Below are positions 1-16,701 of a stretch of 23,149 bases of DNA, in pieces. Position 1 is the stretch's first letter. The number at the start of each line of letters is the position of its first letter. The stretch spans positions 9,718-32,866 of the IMG/VR virus record IMGVR_UViG_3300029448_000152, one strand, 5' to 3'. The notes beneath the pieces were generated by a model. That model did not search any database and had not been told where the DNA came from. It was given only the letters and a program-made list of their open reading frames with translations. A program made the translations under genes and the position numbers. The DNA is from a virus.

Positions 1-334
1 GTTCTACTGCATTAGTTTCTTGTAGTGTTATTACTAAACCATCTAATGGTGCTCCAGTTGCAGCTTGTACAGAAGTGTTTACACCAGAGTTAGTAAAAAC
101 AAGATTATAACTGTCATCAGCAGTTGTATCTGTACCACCAGTTCCGTTATAAGTATAATTACTAGATGATATTTCAATACCATTTATAAATACTCTTATC
201 TCAGACTGTTGTGTTGGTCTGGTAGAAAATGCGCTATCAGGTAAATTAAATGATGTTAAAGTACCATTAGCTGTATTCCAACTATATGATTGATTATAAT
301 ACGACTCTTGTGTTGTTGCTCCTAGTAATCCCAT
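1..334 (-). CDS. Fibre/appendage-like structural protein, N-terminal part (3' end outside window)
   Basis: An open frame starts at ATG 334 (MGLLGATTQESYYNQ) and runs off the left edge without a stop, giving about 111 residues. It begins 3 bases after the stop of the preceding gene, so it belongs to the same transcript. The visible part is rich in Thr, Ser and Asn with beta-type alternation. It contains a pattern (SEIRVFINGIEISSSNYTY, then DGLVITLQETN) like the beta-sandwich modules at the N-terminus of phage tail fibres and appendage proteins, where an F-x-V-x-V-N-G-x strand is common. Its place after the capsid and neck genes fits a tail-associated virion protein. The family assignment is inferred from general pattern only. 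Confidence 0.6.
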   Translation of the reverse strand, partial: MGLLGATTQESYYNQSYSWNTANGTLTSFNLPDSAFSTRPTQQSEIRVFINGIEISSSNYTYNGTGGTDTTADDSYNLVFTNSGVNTSVQAATGAPLDGLVITLQETNAVE

Positions 335-9432: not shown

Positions 9433-9707
9433 TATTTAGATCTTCTTTCTGCAAAACCACCAAAAGCAACAGTTTTCTTTTCTTGTTTTGGTTTGTTTTC
9501 TAAAATATTCTCTTCTTCTTGTATACGTGTAAGTATTTCAAAAGCATCAAATATAGCTAACTTTTTAGTAGCGGCTGCGTTTTTTAATCTATCAGCACTA
9601 ATATCTTCATTACTATCAACTATAGGTTCTTTAGCTACTTTTACTAATTCTTCTACAGCTTTATAACCAGCTTGGATTATATTCTTTTTCCTTTCCTTGA
9701 TATTCAT
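9432..9707 (-). CDS. Small protein upstream of terminase, possible small terminase subunit
   Basis: A 91-residue, mostly helical, charged protein. It shares a TAATG overlap with the terminase large-subunit gene and overlaps the upstream gene by 47 bases, so it is clearly part of the operon. The core (SADRLKNAAATKKLAIFDAF) is a helix pair, and the C-terminal tail is basic (GGFAERRSK). Small terminase subunits are often encoded just before the large subunit and are helical DNA-binding proteins, which makes this a candidate. However, it is short for that family and shows no clear helix-turn-helix. The alternative is an uncharacterised packaging accessory protein. Confidence 0.65.
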   Translation of the reverse strand: MNIKERKKNIIQAGYKAVEELVKVAKEPIVDSNEDISADRLKNAAATKKLAIFDAFEILTRIQEEENILENKPKQEKKTVAFGGFAERRSK

Positions 9708-10245
9708 ATTTAATTGTAATGTCTTTTGTTCTTACTTTATATAAACGTTCACCATCAATAATAAATTCATACTCACTGTTTGGAGTAAAACCAACCAAAC
9801 TATTTACTTCTGGTAGATTTTTATTAGTATGTTTTATTATACCTATTAATGGTTGTTCTTTATTAGTATCAAACATATCATTAGATTTTATTGGTTTTAC
9901 AAAACAACAATCATCTAATGGTATCCACTTATTATTTCTTTTATAAGCAAACACTTGATCCATAAAAACAAAATATAAGTTATCTTTATAATAAGCTTTA
10001 CTATCTTGCTCAATACCTCTCACATCTGTATATCTTCTAAATACATTGTGGTGCACTATTATAGTGTCACCTACTTTTATATCTGTTTTAAATAAAGATG
10101 GCGTAGAAATTACTACAGCTTCTCTACTAACATATTGGTGTTGAAAAATATCTGTATTAACTATTATTTCTTTTCCACCTATGTTTTTAGTATTATTGTA
10201 TCTATTATCTTTAGGTTTTATTATAAAGTTATATATACTTTTCAC
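9661..10245 (-). CDS. GroES-like co-chaperonin, with a second GroES-like half
   Basis: A 194-residue protein resembling GroES-family co-chaperonins, which cap GroEL during folding; phages such as T4 (gp31) encode their own for capsid folding. Residues 7-16 (FIIKPKDNRY) match the first GroES strand, and NIGGKEIIV follows like the mobile loop GGI-V motif. IKVGDTIIV (56-64) matches VKVGD-VIF, and YYKDNLYFVFMDQVFAYK (85-102) corresponds to the strand before the terminal IL-A segment. Residues 132-180 repeat the pattern: LIGIIKHTN, NSLVGFTPNSEYEFIIDGER and LYKVRTKDITIKY align with the second half of GroES. The start is GTG, overlapping the upstream TAG stop (TAGTG), so it is coupled. The call rests on motif reading only. 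Confidence 0.6.
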   Translation of the reverse strand: MKSIYNFIIKPKDNRYNNTKNIGGKEIIVNTDIFQHQYVSREAVVISTPSLFKTDIKVGDTIIVHHNVFRRYTDVRGIEQDSKAYYKDNLYFVFMDQVFAYKRNNKWIPLDDCCFVKPIKSNDMFDTNKEQPLIGIIKHTNKNLPEVNSLVGFTPNSEYEFIIDGERLYKVRTKDITIKYEYQGKEKEYNPSWL

Positions 10246-10776: not shown

Positions 10777-11682
10777 TTACTTCTTTTTCTTAACATCAGC
10801 AATAAACCAATCTTTATATGCATCTCTTTTCTTTGATATGTACTCAAAATACTTATCCACCTTCTCTCTCCAATTTTTATCTAACCAAGGATTTATGATG
10901 CCTGATTCAAAATTAGAAAAACTGTGATTAATAAATTCTTTGATATTGTCTTGATGAGTAAAGAGGTAGTTGTTAATTGTATAAAAAGATCCTTGTTGTA
11001 TATTATTCCATATATCAATAGCTTCTATCTTTTTACCTAACACTGCTGCGTATGCAGCACTTTCACTTATGTGAGTAGTATATACTGTTTTAGCTTTTTG
11101 CATGTAATAATACATGTCAATATTTCTAGGTAGTATGCAATCTTCACCAAAAAAATCTTTTAATTCACCTATAATCTGATGTGTTGTAATAGGGTGTGGT
11201 TTAAAATAAATGTTATTACCGTGTTGTTTTTTAATATGCCTTAATCTATTTAAACAAACATTTGTTTTTATTTTGTTAGATCCAGGTAAAACAACCAAAT
11301 AATCTTTTGGTGGATACTTTTCAAAGTCTTGACTTCTTTCAGTATATTTATTAGCAACATTATTTTGTATGTTGTCTATTAAAAATCCAGCATAATCATG
11401 CTTAGGACACTTTGAACAATTCTTATGCCAAGCATCAGCTAATTGTTCATTTCTTAATTTAAAATTTAAAGGTTGTAGATAAAAATTACCTGCAAACTCT
11501 GTATATCCAATAGTTTTAAAATAAGGCATTTCTTCAGCTAATACATCATAGCTTGATTCTATACCATATTCGCTACACTTTCTAATAACATAACCTTCTA
11601 TGTTTTCTAGTTCGTATAGTCTTTTTTCTTTTTTTAAAGGACCTATTCTATTATCCAGCTCCTTTTTATTAAACATTTCCAT
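10777..11682 (-). CDS. GT-B / capsule-polysaccharide-type glycosyltransferase-like protein
   Basis: A 301-residue cytoplasmic-type protein. The C-terminal half has the order of motifs seen in capsule polysaccharide and CDP-glycerol/Kdo-transferase-like GT-B folds. There is a strand with PGSNK (133-137), then NIYFKPHPI (157-165) matching the common KPHP nucleotide-site motif. TVYTTHISESAAYAAVLGKK (199-218) then corresponds to the conserved segment before the substrate loop that usually reads like D-SS-A-EAL-LGKP. A pair of cysteines (CSKC, 89-92) may bind metal. It lies directly downstream of the Thr-rich repeat gene, so it may decorate that fibre or other virion surface. A sugar-modifying role on DNA or host glycan is an alternative. 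The fold call is moderate and the substrate unknown. Confidence 0.58.
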   Translation of the reverse strand: MEMFNKKELDNRIGPLKKEKRLYELENIEGYVIRKCSEYGIESSYDVLAEEMPYFKTIGYTEFAGNFYLQPLNFKLRNEQLADAWHKNCSKCPKHDYAGFLIDNIQNNVANKYTERSQDFEKYPPKDYLVVLPGSNKIKTNVCLNRLRHIKKQHGNNIYFKPHPITTHQIIGELKDFFGEDCILPRNIDMYYYMQKAKTVYTTHISESAAYAAVLGKKIEAIDIWNNIQQGSFYTINNYLFTHQDNIKEFINHSFSNFESGIINPWLDKNWREKVDKYFEYISKKRDAYKDWFIADVKKKK

Positions 11683-11739: not shown

Positions 11740-13830
11740 CTATGTACCTTGCCTACCACCACTTATGTAAGGATATGTATGTAATAAGCCTTCCATTGCC
11801 TTGTTAGGTAGTTGATACCAATTAGTTATAAACTTAGTACTAGTGCTAGTATTATACGTAGTTGTAGTGTTCGTACTAGTGTTGTACGTGGTTGTTGTTG
11901 ACTTAGTTGTATTATAAGTTGTTATTGTACTTGTACTAGTGTTAAACGCTGTAATAGTTATTGTCTGTGTTATAGTACTAGTGTTAAACGTAGTTGTGTA
12001 AACAGTGGTGGTATCGGTTTGTGTGTTATAAACAGTGGTGGTACTTGTGTTCCATGATGTTTTATACACAGTATTAGTTGTTGTACTAGTGTTAAACGTA
12101 GTCGTAGTTGTTTTACTTGTATTCGTACTAGTATTAAAAGTTGTCGTAAATTCAGTTATCCAAGTAGTTATAGTTATCGTGTTTGTTGATCTACTTGTAT
12201 TCCAGTATGACGTATACTCTGTCGTTGTATCTTTTTGAGTTTCTACAACGGTTGATGTAGCTTTAGACGTAGCCCAAGTCGTAGTTCTAGATGTAATACT
12301 TGATGTTGACACTACAGTTGTTGTGCTAGTGTTATATGTTGTAACAGTGCTAGTGTTAAATGTTGTTGTAGTATTCTTATTAGTATTATACGTTGTAGTA
12401 GTACTTTTACTAGTAACTGTACTTGTATTATAAGCAGTAACAAATGAAGTTATCCATGTTGTTATTGTAATTGTTTGAGTATTTTTACTAGTGTTCCAAT
12501 ATGTTATATATACAGTACTTGTGTCTTTTTGAGTTTCTACAACGGTTGATGTTGACTTACTTGTTGCCCAAGTAGTTGTTCTATTTGTAATTTTACTTGT
12601 TGACCAAGAAGTCGTTCTAGTTGTATTATATACCGTAGTTGTCTGTGTATTAAACGTAGTAGTAGTAGCCTTACTAGTATTAAAAGTCGTAGTAGTTGAC
12701 TTACTTGTTACCGTGCTTGTATTGTACGCTGTTACAAATTCAGTTATCCAAGTTGTAGTTGTGCTTCTACTTTCCGTAGTAGTAGTACTTGTGTTATAAG
12801 TTGTAGTCCTACTAGTAGCCCAAGTAGTAGTAGTACTTTTTGATGTTACTGTACTAGTATTAAATGTTGTGCTAGTAGTATATACTGTACTTGTAGACCT
12901 CTGTTCTACTGTAGTTGTGCTTGTATTATAAGTAGTACTAGTTGTATATATAGTTTGAGTACTCCTACTCTCCGTTGTGTTTTTACTAGTAGACCAACTA
13001 GTAGATCTAGATGTAATAGTACTAGTATTAAACGTGGTACTTGTGGTATAAGTAGTCGTCGTTGACCTTTTCTCTATAGTTGATGTAGAAGTATTAAACG
13101 TGGTACTTGTAGTGTAAGTAGTGGTCGTGCTTCTACTTTCAGTTGTTGATGTACTAGTATTATACGCTGTAGTGGTACCAAATGTGGTGGTCCAACTAGT
13201 TGTATAAACTGTGGATGTTGCGGTTGATGTGTTGTAAACCGTGCTTGTCGTATACACTGTAGTTGTACTTCTTTTTTCTATAGTTGTTGTAGAAGTATTA
13301 TAAGTAGTGGTAGTATTATAAGTAGTAGTAGTATTTCTACTTTCTACTGTGTTTTTACTTGTAGCCCAAGTTGTTGTGGTGCCAAAAGTAGTAGTCCAAC
13401 TAGTAGTGTATGTAGTTGTAGTTGACTTTGACGTATTGAACGTTGTACTAGTTGTATATGTTGTTGTAGTAGTATATACTGTACTTGTACTTTTACTAGT
13501 TGCAAAAGTAGTACTAGTTGATTTACTAGTGTTTGTACTAGTATTATATGCTGTAACAAAATTAGTAATCCAAGTTGTAGTATACGCAGTAGTTGTACTT
13601 TTACTTGTGTTAAATGTAGTTGTTCTAGATGTAGCCCAAGTGGTAGTAGTTGAGTGATTCGTACTTCTACTAGTTGTCCACGTAGTTGTCCTACTAGTAT
13701 TCCAAGTAGTAGTACGTGAAGTGGAACGTAAGTGCGTATTCCTACTAGTAGCCGTATTTTGACTAGCATTAGTTATTCTCTTTGTAAGAGTTGCCCGAGA
13801 TGTCGATGTATTTCTACTAGTATTCGGCAT
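11740..13830 (-). CDS. Giant Thr-rich alternating-repeat protein (fibre candidate) 1
   Basis: A 696-residue protein that is repetitive almost end to end. In the unit I counted, 40 of 98 residues are Thr and 12 Ser. Residues alternate by parity: one parity carries Thr, Tyr/Phe/Trp or Lys/Arg, the other Asn, Ser, Thr, Val or Ile. NTS and NTT (N-x-S/T sequons) recur dozens of times. Two exact-length 98-residue units occur in tandem, and a third begins after them. The only non-repetitive part is the last 30 residues (NWYQLPNKAMEGLLHTYPYI, ending GGRQGT). There is no signal peptide. The alternation implies extended beta structure, probably an elongated homo-oligomeric fibre, though no structure is known to me. 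It is followed by a glycosyltransferase-like gene. Mutational slippage could change its length. Confidence 0.82.
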   Translation of the reverse strand: MPNTSRNTSTSRATLTKRITNASQNTATSRNTHLRSTSRTTTWNTSRTTTWTTSRSTNHSTTTTWATSRTTTFNTSKSTTTAYTTTWITNFVTAYNTSTNTSKSTSTTFATSKSTSTVYTTTTTYTTSTTFNTSKSTTTTYTTSWTTTFGTTTTWATSKNTVESRNTTTTYNTTTTYNTSTTTIEKRSTTTVYTTSTVYNTSTATSTVYTTSWTTTFGTTTAYNTSTSTTESRSTTTTYTTSTTFNTSTSTIEKRSTTTTYTTSTTFNTSTITSRSTSWSTSKNTTESRSTQTIYTTSTTYNTSTTTVEQRSTSTVYTTSTTFNTSTVTSKSTTTTWATSRTTTYNTSTTTTESRSTTTTWITEFVTAYNTSTVTSKSTTTTFNTSKATTTTFNTQTTTVYNTTRTTSWSTSKITNRTTTWATSKSTSTVVETQKDTSTVYITYWNTSKNTQTITITTWITSFVTAYNTSTVTSKSTTTTYNTNKNTTTTFNTSTVTTYNTSTTTVVSTSSITSRTTTWATSKATSTVVETQKDTTTEYTSYWNTSRSTNTITITTWITEFTTTFNTSTNTSKTTTTTFNTSTTTNTVYKTSWNTSTTTVYNTQTDTTTVYTTTFNTSTITQTITITAFNTSTSTITTYNTTKSTTTTYNTSTNTTTTYNTSTSTKFITNWYQLPNKAMEGLLHTYPYISGGRQGT
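12163..12750 (-). repeat. Two tandem 294-bp (98-codon) super-repeats in Thr-rich protein 1
   Basis: Unit 1 spans 12750 to 12457 and unit 2 spans 12456 to 12163; a third unit begins at 12162 and diverges. Each starts with WIT(E/S)F. They align without gaps over 98 codons, for example WATSK at unit position 61, VETQKDT at 71 and TITITT at the end. A stretch of 29 bases is identical between copies (12524-12552 and 12230-12258), whereas elsewhere 12 of the first 21 shared residues use different codons. Confidence 0.85.
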
Positions 13831-13832
13831 AG

Positions 13833-14381
13833 CTACGCGTTTTTAATTGTTGTTTTTGGTACTATTGGAAAATATATTCTACCATTCATATTTATATGAT
13901 CCATATAGTTGTTTTCTAAATCTGTTATATTTTGACCAGTTATTTCAAAATGCCAAAATAAATCAGCGATAATTAAATCGTATTTTTTATTAGGTACGTA
14001 AGTATAAGCATCCGCTTTTATAATATTTATTGGACTAGATAAATAATCAACGTAGTCAATTAACTCTTGATTATTGTCTACAACATCGATAACTTGTACA
14101 AAATCTTTATTATCTTTTATGTATTGAGGTAGTGTACCTAAACCTAAACCCAATACTAAAACATTTGGATAATTAGGTATACCTTCAAATAATCTAAAGT
14201 GCTCTCTTGATGTAGGTACTTCACTATTACCTTCTTCACCTTGACCCATAAAAGCTTTACCATAATGCTCTTTGTTTTCTATGGTATTACCTTCGGTAAA
14301 TGTCAAAGTAGACACACCATCAACTTTTGCAACTGAAAAGCTAGTTCCTGTATATTCTGATATTAATTCTTCGTTTACCAT
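13833..14381 (-). CDS. SAM-dependent methyltransferase / spermidine-synthase-like protein
   Basis: A class I Rossmann-fold protein of 182 residues if started at ATG 14381 (MVNEELISEY). An ATG at 14420 would give 195 residues but overlap the upstream gene, so the shorter start, 13 bases after that stop, is preferred. Motif I is VLVLGLGLGTLP (74-85), the acidic ribose-binding strand is VIDVVDNN (97-104), the next strand ends in KADAY (D124), and motif IV is YDLIIADLFW (134-143). This order and the YD-II-D motif resemble spermidine synthase-like proteins. The family's usual N-terminal beta domain is reduced (about 70 residues). It lies between the two Thr-rich repeat genes, so it may modify them. 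Aminopropyl transfer versus methylation cannot be told from sequence. Confidence 0.72.
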   Translation of the reverse strand: MVNEELISEYTGTSFSVAKVDGVSTLTFTEGNTIENKEHYGKAFMGQGEEGNSEVPTSREHFRLFEGIPNYPNVLVLGLGLGTLPQYIKDNKDFVQVIDVVDNNQELIDYVDYLSSPINIIKADAYTYVPNKKYDLIIADLFWHFEITGQNITDLENNYMDHINMNGRIYFPIVPKTTIKNA

Positions 14382-14394
14382 ATTAATTATTTGT

Positions 14395-16701
14395 TTACCA
14401 TTGACTACAAGTATATACACTTGTTACTACACCACCAGCTCCAACATACACAACTTTATCAGCACTAAATGAAGATGATCCAGATACTGGCCACCATCCA
14501 CTACTTGCATATGATGAACATGATGAATTAGTATATAATGTACTACCTACACCAAAACTAAACCATGACACGTTTGAACCAGCAGCTGTAGCAGTCATTT
14601 CCATACAACCAAATGCTGCTTTTTGTACTGTGCCTGTTGCTCTATAAAATGTAAAACAAGATGTAGTGCTATATGTAGTTGTAGTGTTAAACGTAGTAGT
14701 AGTATTATACTCTGTTTGTATTTGAAAAGCAGTTGTTGTATTAAATACTGTACTTGTACTAGTATTAAATGTTGTTGTTCTACTAGTGTTAAATGTTGTT
14801 GTTCTACTTGTGTTCCAATACGTAGTATAAGTTGTTGTTGTTGATTTTGACGTATTAAATGTTGTTGTTCTAGACGTGTTCCATGTGGTTGTAGTACTTT
14901 TACTAGTTCCTTGACTTGTAGATCTTTTTGTTGTAGTACTAGTATTATAATTTGTTGTCCAAGTAGTAGTTGTATTTCTTGATGTGTTCCAAGTAGTAGT
15001 TGTATTTCTGCTTTCGGTTGTACTTCTACTTTCAGTTGTATTTCTACTAGTGGCCCAAGTAGTAGTTGTTGACCTACTTGTTGTTTTACTAGTTGTTCTA
15101 GACGTTTGTGTCGTGGTACTAGTATTGAAAGTCGTACTTGTTGTATAAGTAGTAGTCGTATTTCTTGATTCACTTGTTGTCTTACTAGTATTGTAATTTG
15201 TAGTAGTTGTATATATAGTCTGTGTACTTCTTGATTCAGTTGTATTTTTACTAGTTGATACAACGGTGCTAGTATTTCTACTTGTAGATTTTGAAGTTGA
15301 TCTAGATGTCTGAGTAGTAGTACTAGTGTTGTATGCGGTAGTTGTACTATATACAGTTGTTGTCGATCTACTTTCAGTTGTGTTTCTACTAGTATTATAC
15401 GTTGTGGTAGTAGTGTATATAGTTTGTGTACTTCTGCTTTCAGTCGTGTTTTTAGATGTAGACCAAGATGTTGTAAATATAGTTATAGTACTAGTATTGA
15501 ATACCGTACTAGTAGTATATGTTGTAGTTGTTGATCTTTTTTCTATAGTATTTTTACTTGTGTTAAAAGTAGTCGTAGTTGTATACGTAGTCGTTGTGTT
15601 TCTACTTTCAGTTGTATTTTTACTTGTCGCCCATGTAGTTGTATAAGCTGTTGTAGTAGATTTACTAGTATTAAAAGTTGTTGTTCTGCTAGTATTGTAA
15701 GCAGTAGTTGTGCTATACACCGTCGTTGTGGACTTAGATGTAGATTTCTTAGTTGTCGTACTTGTATTATATGTTGTTGTATAAGCTGTAGACGTTGATC
15801 TACTCGTTGACCAAGTTGTAGTAGTAGATTTACTAGTTGCCCAGGTTGTAGTTTTTGATGTATTAAAAGTTGTAACAGTACTTGTATTAAAAGTAGTAGT
15901 GTATACAGTATTCGTACTTGTGTTAAAAGTAGTAGTTGTATTCGTACTTGTGTTATATACTGTTATAGTTGTTCTACTAGTTGCTAAACTTGCCTGTGTT
16001 TGATAAACAGTCTCATATATAGTTATTGTATTTTGAGATGTAGATTTCTTAGTTGTTGTACTCGTGTTATACGCAGTAGTATAGGCAGTGGTAGTACTCT
16101 TACTAGTATTATATATAGTAGTAGTTGACTTATTTGTAGACCACGTAGTTTCTTTACTTGTATTAAACGTAGTTACTGTACTAGTATTGAATGTAGTTGT
16201 ATATGTAGTTACAGTACTAGTATTAAATGTTGTGGTCGTGTTTGTGCTAGTATTGTATACAGTTATAGTAGTCCTATCTGTAATCCTACTTGTTTGGAAA
16301 GTAGTTGTATATACAGTTGTGGTATCTTTTGAAGTAGATTTTTTAGTAGTTGTACTAGTATTATACGTAGTAGACCAAGTGGTTGTAGTATTTTTACTTG
16401 TAGACCAATTTGTAGTCGTGTCTTTATTTGTAATTCTAAAGGTTTCCCAAGTTGTTGTTTTACTAGTTGTGTAATATGTAATAGTGATTGTATTCGTGGT
16501 CTTAGAAGTAGCCCACGTAGTTGTATATACTGTAGTAGTATTTTTAGAAGTTTCCCAAGTTGTATCAGTCGACTTGGTAGTATTATATGTAGTAGTAGTC
16601 GCAGTACTCGTGTTAAACGTAGTACTCGTTGACTTACTAGTAGATACAGTAGTATTTTTACTAGTGTTCCATATGTCTAATCTTGACCAAAACCACTTCA
16701 T
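14395..16701 (-). CDS. Giant Thr-rich alternating-repeat protein (fibre candidate) 2, with C-terminal Cys-containing tip
   Basis: A 768-residue paralogue of the protein at 11740-13830. Residues 1-12 are a unique basic/aromatic start (MKWFWSRLDIW). Residues about 12-672 are Thr-rich alternating repeats, including 98-, 100- and 68-residue units. In the first 98-residue unit every residue of one parity is Thr, aromatic or Lys/Arg. The last ~95 residues form a distinct compact domain with four Cys (SCFTFYR, FGCME, SSCSSY, YTCSQW) and VGSTLYTNSSCSS, GWWPVSG, YVGAGGVVTSVYTC. These resemble small C-terminal modules of Bacteroidota phage adhesins, and this could be the receptor-binding tip. No membrane anchor is seen. 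The order fibre shaft, then tip, is inferred. Confidence 0.83.
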   Translation of the reverse strand: MKWFWSRLDIWNTSKNTTVSTSKSTSTTFNTSTATTTTYNTTKSTDTTWETSKNTTTVYTTTWATSKTTNTITITYYTTSKTTTWETFRITNKDTTTNWSTSKNTTTTWSTTYNTSTTTKKSTSKDTTTVYTTTFQTSRITDRTTITVYNTSTNTTTTFNTSTVTTYTTTFNTSTVTTFNTSKETTWSTNKSTTTIYNTSKSTTTAYTTAYNTSTTTKKSTSQNTITIYETVYQTQASLATSRTTITVYNTSTNTTTTFNTSTNTVYTTTFNTSTVTTFNTSKTTTWATSKSTTTTWSTSRSTSTAYTTTYNTSTTTKKSTSKSTTTVYSTTTAYNTSRTTTFNTSKSTTTAYTTTWATSKNTTESRNTTTTYTTTTTFNTSKNTIEKRSTTTTYTTSTVFNTSTITIFTTSWSTSKNTTESRSTQTIYTTTTTYNTSRNTTESRSTTTVYSTTTAYNTSTTTQTSRSTSKSTSRNTSTVVSTSKNTTESRSTQTIYTTTTNYNTSKTTSESRNTTTTYTTSTTFNTSTTTQTSRTTSKTTSRSTTTTWATSRNTTESRSTTESRNTTTTWNTSRNTTTTWTTNYNTSTTTKRSTSQGTSKSTTTTWNTSRTTTFNTSKSTTTTYTTYWNTSRTTTFNTSRTTTFNTSTSTVFNTTTAFQIQTEYNTTTTFNTTTTYSTTSCFTFYRATGTVQKAAFGCMEMTATAAGSNVSWFSFGVGSTLYTNSSCSSYASSGWWPVSGSSSFSADKVVYVGAGGVVTSVYTCSQW
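15034..15441 (-). repeat. Two tandem 204-bp (68-codon) super-repeats in Thr-rich protein 2
   Basis: Unit 1 spans 15441 to 15238 and unit 2 spans 15237 to 15034; both begin ESRSTQTIYTT and share TTTQTSR near unit position 41-47. They are followed by another ESRST at 15033. Length 68 is even, so the alternating residue parity is kept. Confidence 0.8.
15751..16344 (-). repeat. Tandem 294-bp and 300-bp super-repeats in Thr-rich protein 2
   Basis: Unit 1 (98 codons) spans 16344 to 16051 and unit 2 (100 codons) spans 16050 to 15751. Each starts with KKSTS and contains RTTITVYNTSTNTTTTFNTS. The two extra residues of unit 2 lie in QASLATSR where unit 1 has SRITDR. A third KKSTS begins at 15750 and then diverges. 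Confidence 0.83.

Follow-up and report, generated by a model that had tools for sequence, protein, structure and literature searches.

A predicted methyltransferase with a shortened spermidine-synthase-type fold, encoded between two Thr-rich fibre-like genes of a phage

The window analysed here is a stretch of 23,149 nucleotides from a marine bacterial virus (positions 9,718 to 32,866 of the 36,334-base virus record IMGVR_UViG_3300029448_000152). The focal gene, at 13833-14381 on the minus strand, has its ATG at 14381 and its stop at 13833 and encodes a protein of 182 amino acids, predicted to be a methyltransferase of spermidine-synthase fold; an alternative in-frame GTG start is possible at 14420. 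Fibre-like gene A (14395-16701, minus strand, 768 amino acids) is located upstream of it across a gap of 13 bp, and fibre-like gene B (11740-13830, minus strand, 696 amino acids) lies downstream across a gap of 2 bp. Both are rich in Thr, Ser and Asn. A gene for a protein of 301 amino acids (10777-11682, minus strand; phrog_26179), which is the anchor point of this fibre module among relatives with Thr-rich fibres, completes the minus-strand transcription order of gene A, focal gene, gene B and 301-aa gene. A GroES-like co-chaperonin (9661-10245, minus strand; PHROG 13932, E 7e-21) is encoded just upstream of the packaging genes. Terminase relatives of the window were found in 87 records, 86 of them below 60% identity, and the named phages among them have Flavobacterium, Cellulophaga, Tenacibaculum and Maribacter as hosts, mostly the first two.

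Genes A and B encode proteins with 41-44% Thr, 15-16% Ser and 8% Asn. A search of PHROGs with the two gave no match, and they are treated here as putative fibres; gene A ends in a C-terminal tip domain that is common to fibres of other phages. The Lys and Arg residues of the window fibres occur mostly in a Ser-Lys/Arg-Ser/Thr/Asn-Thr setting, which would provide regular methylation sites. Aromatic residues in both proteins follow even-numbered spacings (22, 18, 28, 8, 14). The 301-aa protein retains an invariant KPHPITTH motif and is 66-97% identical across phages. An idea formed by eye, that it is a GT-B glycosyltransferase, was abandoned: queries of 9 or 25 sequences gave no PDB match at E <= 0.1, and there was no useful Pfam match.

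Scans of viral contigs with the single protein and with profiles, which gave 9, 28 and 63 loci in succession, place relatives of the focal gene in 65 different viral loci besides the window. In a tree of 51 distinct sequences, each 150 amino acids or longer, the nearest neighbour of the window protein is that of locus L002. The dN/dS ratio is 0.12-0.31 in all 11 gene pairs compared, which indicates purifying selection; the ORF is a real, selected gene. Among 50,697 phage records, tblastn with the window protein and its relatives L018, L065 and L046 found no match, and a fifth query, L029, found two weak partial ones. A first scan of bacterial genomes detected no relatives, and a second detected two distant ones, of which one is a PF01564 protein. 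Two members of the family (L028:4433-4981 and L030:3-527, the latter among the loci cut at the gene start) are divergent, with EYYHH replacing DLWW at motif IV. They may be non-catalytic partners; L028 has an adjoining enzyme resembling guanidinoacetate N-methyltransferase (GAMT).

The original prediction recognized the motifs GLGLGTLP, VIDVVDNN and YDLIIADLF in this ORF and took their order as that of spermidine synthases. All three are present, and the comparison holds at the level of the fold. A structure model built from 52 aligned relatives (pLDDT 90.8, pTM 0.89) was used in place of an earlier nine-sequence model (pLDDT 60.4), which was set aside. Its best VIA-align match is the spermidine synthase 3gjy (Z 13.3, rmsd 3.0, 163/182 residues, model range 6..182), and aminopropyltransferases account for 36 of the 50 matches listed, including the top 11; the first other family is TrmR at Z 12.2, so that the lead of the spermidine synthases is small (about 1 Z, approximately the range of a tie). 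Ranked by E-value, Foldseek places TehB first, small-molecule N-methyltransferases next and spermidine synthase eleventh, and those listed of its 507 PDB matches at E <= 0.001 are methyltransferases and aminopropyltransferases. The fold of the model is accordingly that of the class I SAM-dependent methyltransferases, and within the model the kinship with spermidine synthase stands at fold level. The N-terminal beta domain is cut down, as had been proposed: the reduced part spans residues 8-35 (14277-14360, minus strand), where DSSP assigns only strands 15-20, 23-28 and 33-35, and most VIA-align spermidine synthase rows align from model residue 8. The model contains no target-recognition domain.

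Sequence kinship is more diffuse. A sequence-profile search of the PDB gave the plantazolicin methyltransferases BamL and BpumL (5dm1, 4kwc) as best matches at E 1.1e-5, with the alignment largely confined to the core common to class I enzymes, and spermidine synthases at E 0.0017; BamL and BpumL act on a peptide amine. A polyamine aminopropyltransferase model recognizes 16 of the 26 members tested, at E 4e-5 for the best of them, and scores 14.1 bits against the window protein, for a cut-off of 304. The profile search originally proposed, of PF01564 against the window protein, returned no match at E <= 1; two of the 26 members match weakly, with a best E of 0.05. Comparison of the 52-sequence profile by hhalign gave a probability of 88.6 with Escherichia coli SpeE and of 96.9 with the bacterial PF01564 protein (L071), and no GAMT match was found for the window protein or the A3 profile. 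The kinship was to have been overturned by a profile match to an unrelated methyltransferase family with clearly different substrate residues. The substrate residues do clearly differ, but the protein cannot be assigned to any one other methyltransferase family.

The putative SAM site is well preserved. Motif I (VLVLGLGLG, residues 74-82, 14136-14162), the segment DVVDNN (residues 99-104, 14070-14087) and YDLIIADLFW (residues 134-143, 13953-13982) follow one another on the minus strand. In the 52 aligned relatives, G78, G82, D99, V100, E106, Y134 and D135 are invariant and G80 is kept in 48. Residue 102, which aligns with the ribose-binding acid of SpeE, is Asp or Glu in all 52, and residue 140, the catalytic acid, is Asp in 49 and Glu in three. 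With these residues retained in sequence and model, the focal protein would be expected to bind SAM. Two other positions have diverged. In spermidine synthase, the Asp of the GGGD motif is described as holding the aminopropyl group, a second Asp as deprotonating putrescine and a third as anchoring it (PMC10146546). Residue 81, in the place of the GGGD Asp, is Leu, Met, Ile or Phe in 52/52 relatives, and residue 143, in the place of the anchoring Asp, is acidic in none of the 52 and Trp in 42, as it is in the window protein; this second assignment comes from hhalign to SpeE, the MAFFT add-on alignment being gapped after residue 142. The pattern has a bacterial counterpart, since L071 has Ala for the GGGD Asp and DIWG as its second motif.

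These substitutions bear on the suggestion that the enzyme makes polyamines. A minimal aminopropyltransferase, producing spermidine or a relative from the decarboxylated SAM of the host, would account for the closest whole-chain fold match and for the weak kinship to polyamine aminopropyltransferase models, and phages with a genuine spermidine synthase are reported (PMC9992855). However, two of the three catalytic Asp residues are replaced in every relative, and PF01564 reaches its curated cut-off in none of 20 virus records, with one sub-threshold match of 13.8 bits. The SAM decarboxylase SpeD, with which one phage and two viral genomes are described as pairing their synthase (PMC9992855), is likewise found in 0/20 records, in a search whose positive control was detected in 8/14 genomes; as the completeness of the records is uncertain, this absence is weak. 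Polyamine synthesis is rejected as unlikely, and an aminopropyltransferase of this kind is very improbable. From the residues, and with SpeD missing from these records, methyl transfer seems more likely than aminopropyl transfer.

There is precedent for such a change. When the GGGD Asp of Datura spermidine synthase alone is replaced by Ile, synthase activity is reported to be lost and a low methyltransferase activity with SAM to appear, and in the putrescine methyltransferase of Datura an Ile is conserved at this position (PMC3725402). In plant putrescine N-methyltransferase, a spermidine-synthase fold has come to serve methyl transfer, a hydrophobic residue occupying the site of the GGGD Asp (PMC3725402). 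The plant enzymes still act on putrescine and are about 60% identical to plant spermidine synthase. The phage family, by contrast, lacks the anchoring Asp as well and is much more divergent. With spermidine synthase (PF01564, SpeE, and its PRK04457 subgroup), the phage protein has in common the whole-chain fold, the motif order and two acidic residues, the ribose-binding and the catalytic one; it differs in the two missing Asp residues, in its trimmed N-terminal beta part, in having no SpeD partner found and in having no match at the curated cut-off.

The position of the gene between two fibre-like genes was thought to be unusual for an enzyme of this type. It is instead the rule for the family. 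In 56 of the 66 loci (window included), an ORF of 60 amino acids or more lies upstream; in 51 of these 56 the gap to it is between -4 and +20 bp, and one of two homologous types of fibre end is directly upstream in 51/56. Strict profile clustering of 44 distinct upstream C-termini gives these two types and leaves five outside both (lenient E-value clustering merged the types, and the strict run is used for all counts). Type 1, with 28 distinct sequences in 32 loci, is a tip mostly ending at or near a Cys. Type 2, with 11 distinct sequences in 19/56 loci, is an S74-like self-chaperone end, of which the one in L027 matches Pfam S74 at E 3.7e-4, just under the cut-off. On the enzyme tree, the type of fibre end switches at least four times, so the fibre end appears to be swapped while the enzyme stays. 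The family also adjoins fibres that are not Thr-rich, and the Thr repeat therefore cannot be the sole substrate. In two loci (L005:4122-5990 and L014:4428-5990), the fibre that precedes the enzyme contains a match to the von Willebrand factor A domain, which in L005 scores above the Pfam cut-off (24.4 versus 23.8).

A gene directly downstream of a fibre gene resembles the arrangement of T4 gp37-gp38 and lambda stf-tfa, in which the assembly gene follows the fibre gene. The focal protein could by analogy be a fibre assembly factor whose methyltransferase fold no longer does any enzymatic work. The fold of Tfa and T4 gp38 is different from that of the focal protein, and, unlike these proteins, the phage protein keeps its SAM-site residues, with little or no variation among relatives. 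S74 ends probably assist the folding of the fibre that bears them, and the retention of the gene behind S74-like ends in 19/56 loci thus speaks against a chaperone role; a non-orthologous methyltransferase can, moreover, fill the same slot. An assembly role is on these grounds unlikely. The location suits a modification enzyme, as was originally proposed.

The slot itself was surveyed in the best 80 of 179 relatives of the 301-aa gene. An upstream ORF is present in 73 of the 80, and loci in which the contig ends inside fibre B (27) or less than 200 bp upstream of it (2) were excluded. In each of the 44 testable Thr-rich loci that remain, a methyltransferase gene is located directly before fibre B, and in 36 of them fibre A is found immediately ahead of the methyltransferase as well. 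Several of these contigs are near-identical and thus not independent; among the 39 rows (counting the window) whose fibre B is distinct, the slot contains the focal family alone in 29 (some start-truncated), a GAMT-like enzyme alone in seven and both in tandem in three. A wider survey covered those terminase relatives, 33 of 80, that have 3.5 kb or more of upstream sequence. Neither enzyme is present in 30 of these, and the remaining three have the GAMT-like enzyme, among them L193; no other of the 33 has Thr-rich fibres. The enzymes thus seem to go with the Thr-rich module rather than being general to these phages.

The GAMT-like genes that occupy or share the slot in other Thr-rich phages form a lineage separate from that of the window protein. 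Their products match human guanidinoacetate N-methyltransferase at E 4.9e-12 and 6.4e-10; Rmt2 is a relative of GAMT. A DTY motif is invariant in them, and its Asp would correspond, by alignment and a one-residue offset, to the residue named as catalytic Asp134 in GAMT (PMC12471008). An extra gene in L028 was considered as a dimethyladenosine-type methyltransferase, a profile match that is outdone by a stronger match to GAMT. A search of 20 records for GAMT-like genes, run without a positive control, gave no match and is given no weight here. In seven loci (L080, L081, L086, L090, L093, L100 and L118) the GAMT-like ORFs are of 349-366 amino acids and have a C-terminal Hint/intein-like tail; its assignment is weak (Intein_splicing 0.0053, under the cut-off), and no clear splicing partner was found for these proteins. 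That two unrelated methyltransferase lineages replace or accompany each other at this position speaks for methylation itself as the conserved function of the slot.

The protein is most likely a SAM-dependent methyltransferase on a shortened spermidine-synthase-type fold, with the flanking fibres as its most probable target; the two together form a reading that we consider to have about an even chance of being right. In such a model, the focal gene would probably be expressed late, together with the fibre genes on both sides, and the enzyme would most likely methylate these fibres before or during assembly. Methyl transfer is suggested by the sequence and the model, and the fibre is the nearest candidate target by position. 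The acceptor could be an amine or guanidine nitrogen of Lys or Arg, or a sugar on the Thr-rich shaft. A precedent for methylated Lys and Arg is reported on virion proteins of Cellulophaga phages, among them a putative tail fibre (PMC13288928), and Cellulophaga is, with Flavobacterium, the main host of phages with related terminases. A gene for a GT2-like glycosyltransferase is located directly downstream of the enzyme, overlapping or abutting it, in L017 (3739-4353), L021 (504-1118), L024 (3860-4471) and L031, and has relatives in 104 phage records, mostly of cyanophages. Methylation of a fibre glycan is therefore an alternative within the fibre-directed reading.

The same glycosyltransferase gene could equally point to glycan work on the host, and a methyltransferase with a target other than the fibre is a possible, if rather doubtful, alternative. 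The substrate would then be a host surface glycan, a host protein, a nucleic acid or a small metabolite, and the position beside the fibre would be an operon or cargo slot. The missing target-recognition domain is consistent with this, as are the label of PHROG 15480, which 25 of 26 members match and which says simply 'methyltransferase', and the changes of upstream fibre end while the enzyme is retained. Yet the gene hugs a fibre gene in 51/56 loci, and all 44 testable Thr-rich modules have a methyltransferase, where a loose cargo slot should vary or sometimes be empty.

Some evidence also counts against methylation of the fibres by this enzyme. Were the spermidine-like enzyme to act on Lys and the GAMT-like enzyme on Arg, the share of Arg in Arg plus Lys should differ with the occupant of the slot. 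It does not, either in fibre B (29 rows with the focal family only versus 10 with a GAMT-like enzyme, p = 0.31) or in fibre A (p = 0.76), and this division of labour is rejected; that the Arg share of the fibres does not follow slot type also tells against the fibre reading itself, as does the lack of any such enzyme in 30 of the 33 terminase relatives. In addition, the Cellulophaga phages whose virion methylation was reported in 2026 are said to encode no methyltransferases, with host enzymes indicated instead (PMC13288928). Host enzymes can thus carry out virion methylation.

A broader proposal, which is offered tentatively and which we regard as doubtful, is that marine flavobacterial phages have a dedicated fibre-methylation slot. 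Thr-rich fibres would be obligately paired with N-methyltransferases drawn from two or more unrelated lineages that act on amines or guanidines (the spermidine-synthase-like and the GAMT-like, which in some phages stand in tandem), and these enzymes would methylate regularly spaced Lys and Arg residues of the shaft and would be the first phage-encoded methyltransferases of virion proteins. What is new here is the slot and the replacement of its occupant, not the fold. No published description of a fibre-linked, spermidine-synthase-like methyltransferase was found in open-access full text, an absence that is not proof.

The focal gene is a phage-encoded candidate for virion methylation, located beside fibre genes, whereas the 2026 work on Cellulophaga points to host enzymes (PMC13288928). 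The almost unfailing pairing with Thr-rich fibres allows the idea to be tested directly by mass spectrometry of virions. If it is true, viruses would have adapted the spermidine-synthase fold to methyl transfer, as plants did in their putrescine methyltransferase, and if the fibres are indeed modified, methylation would give phages a new means of tuning their contact with the host.
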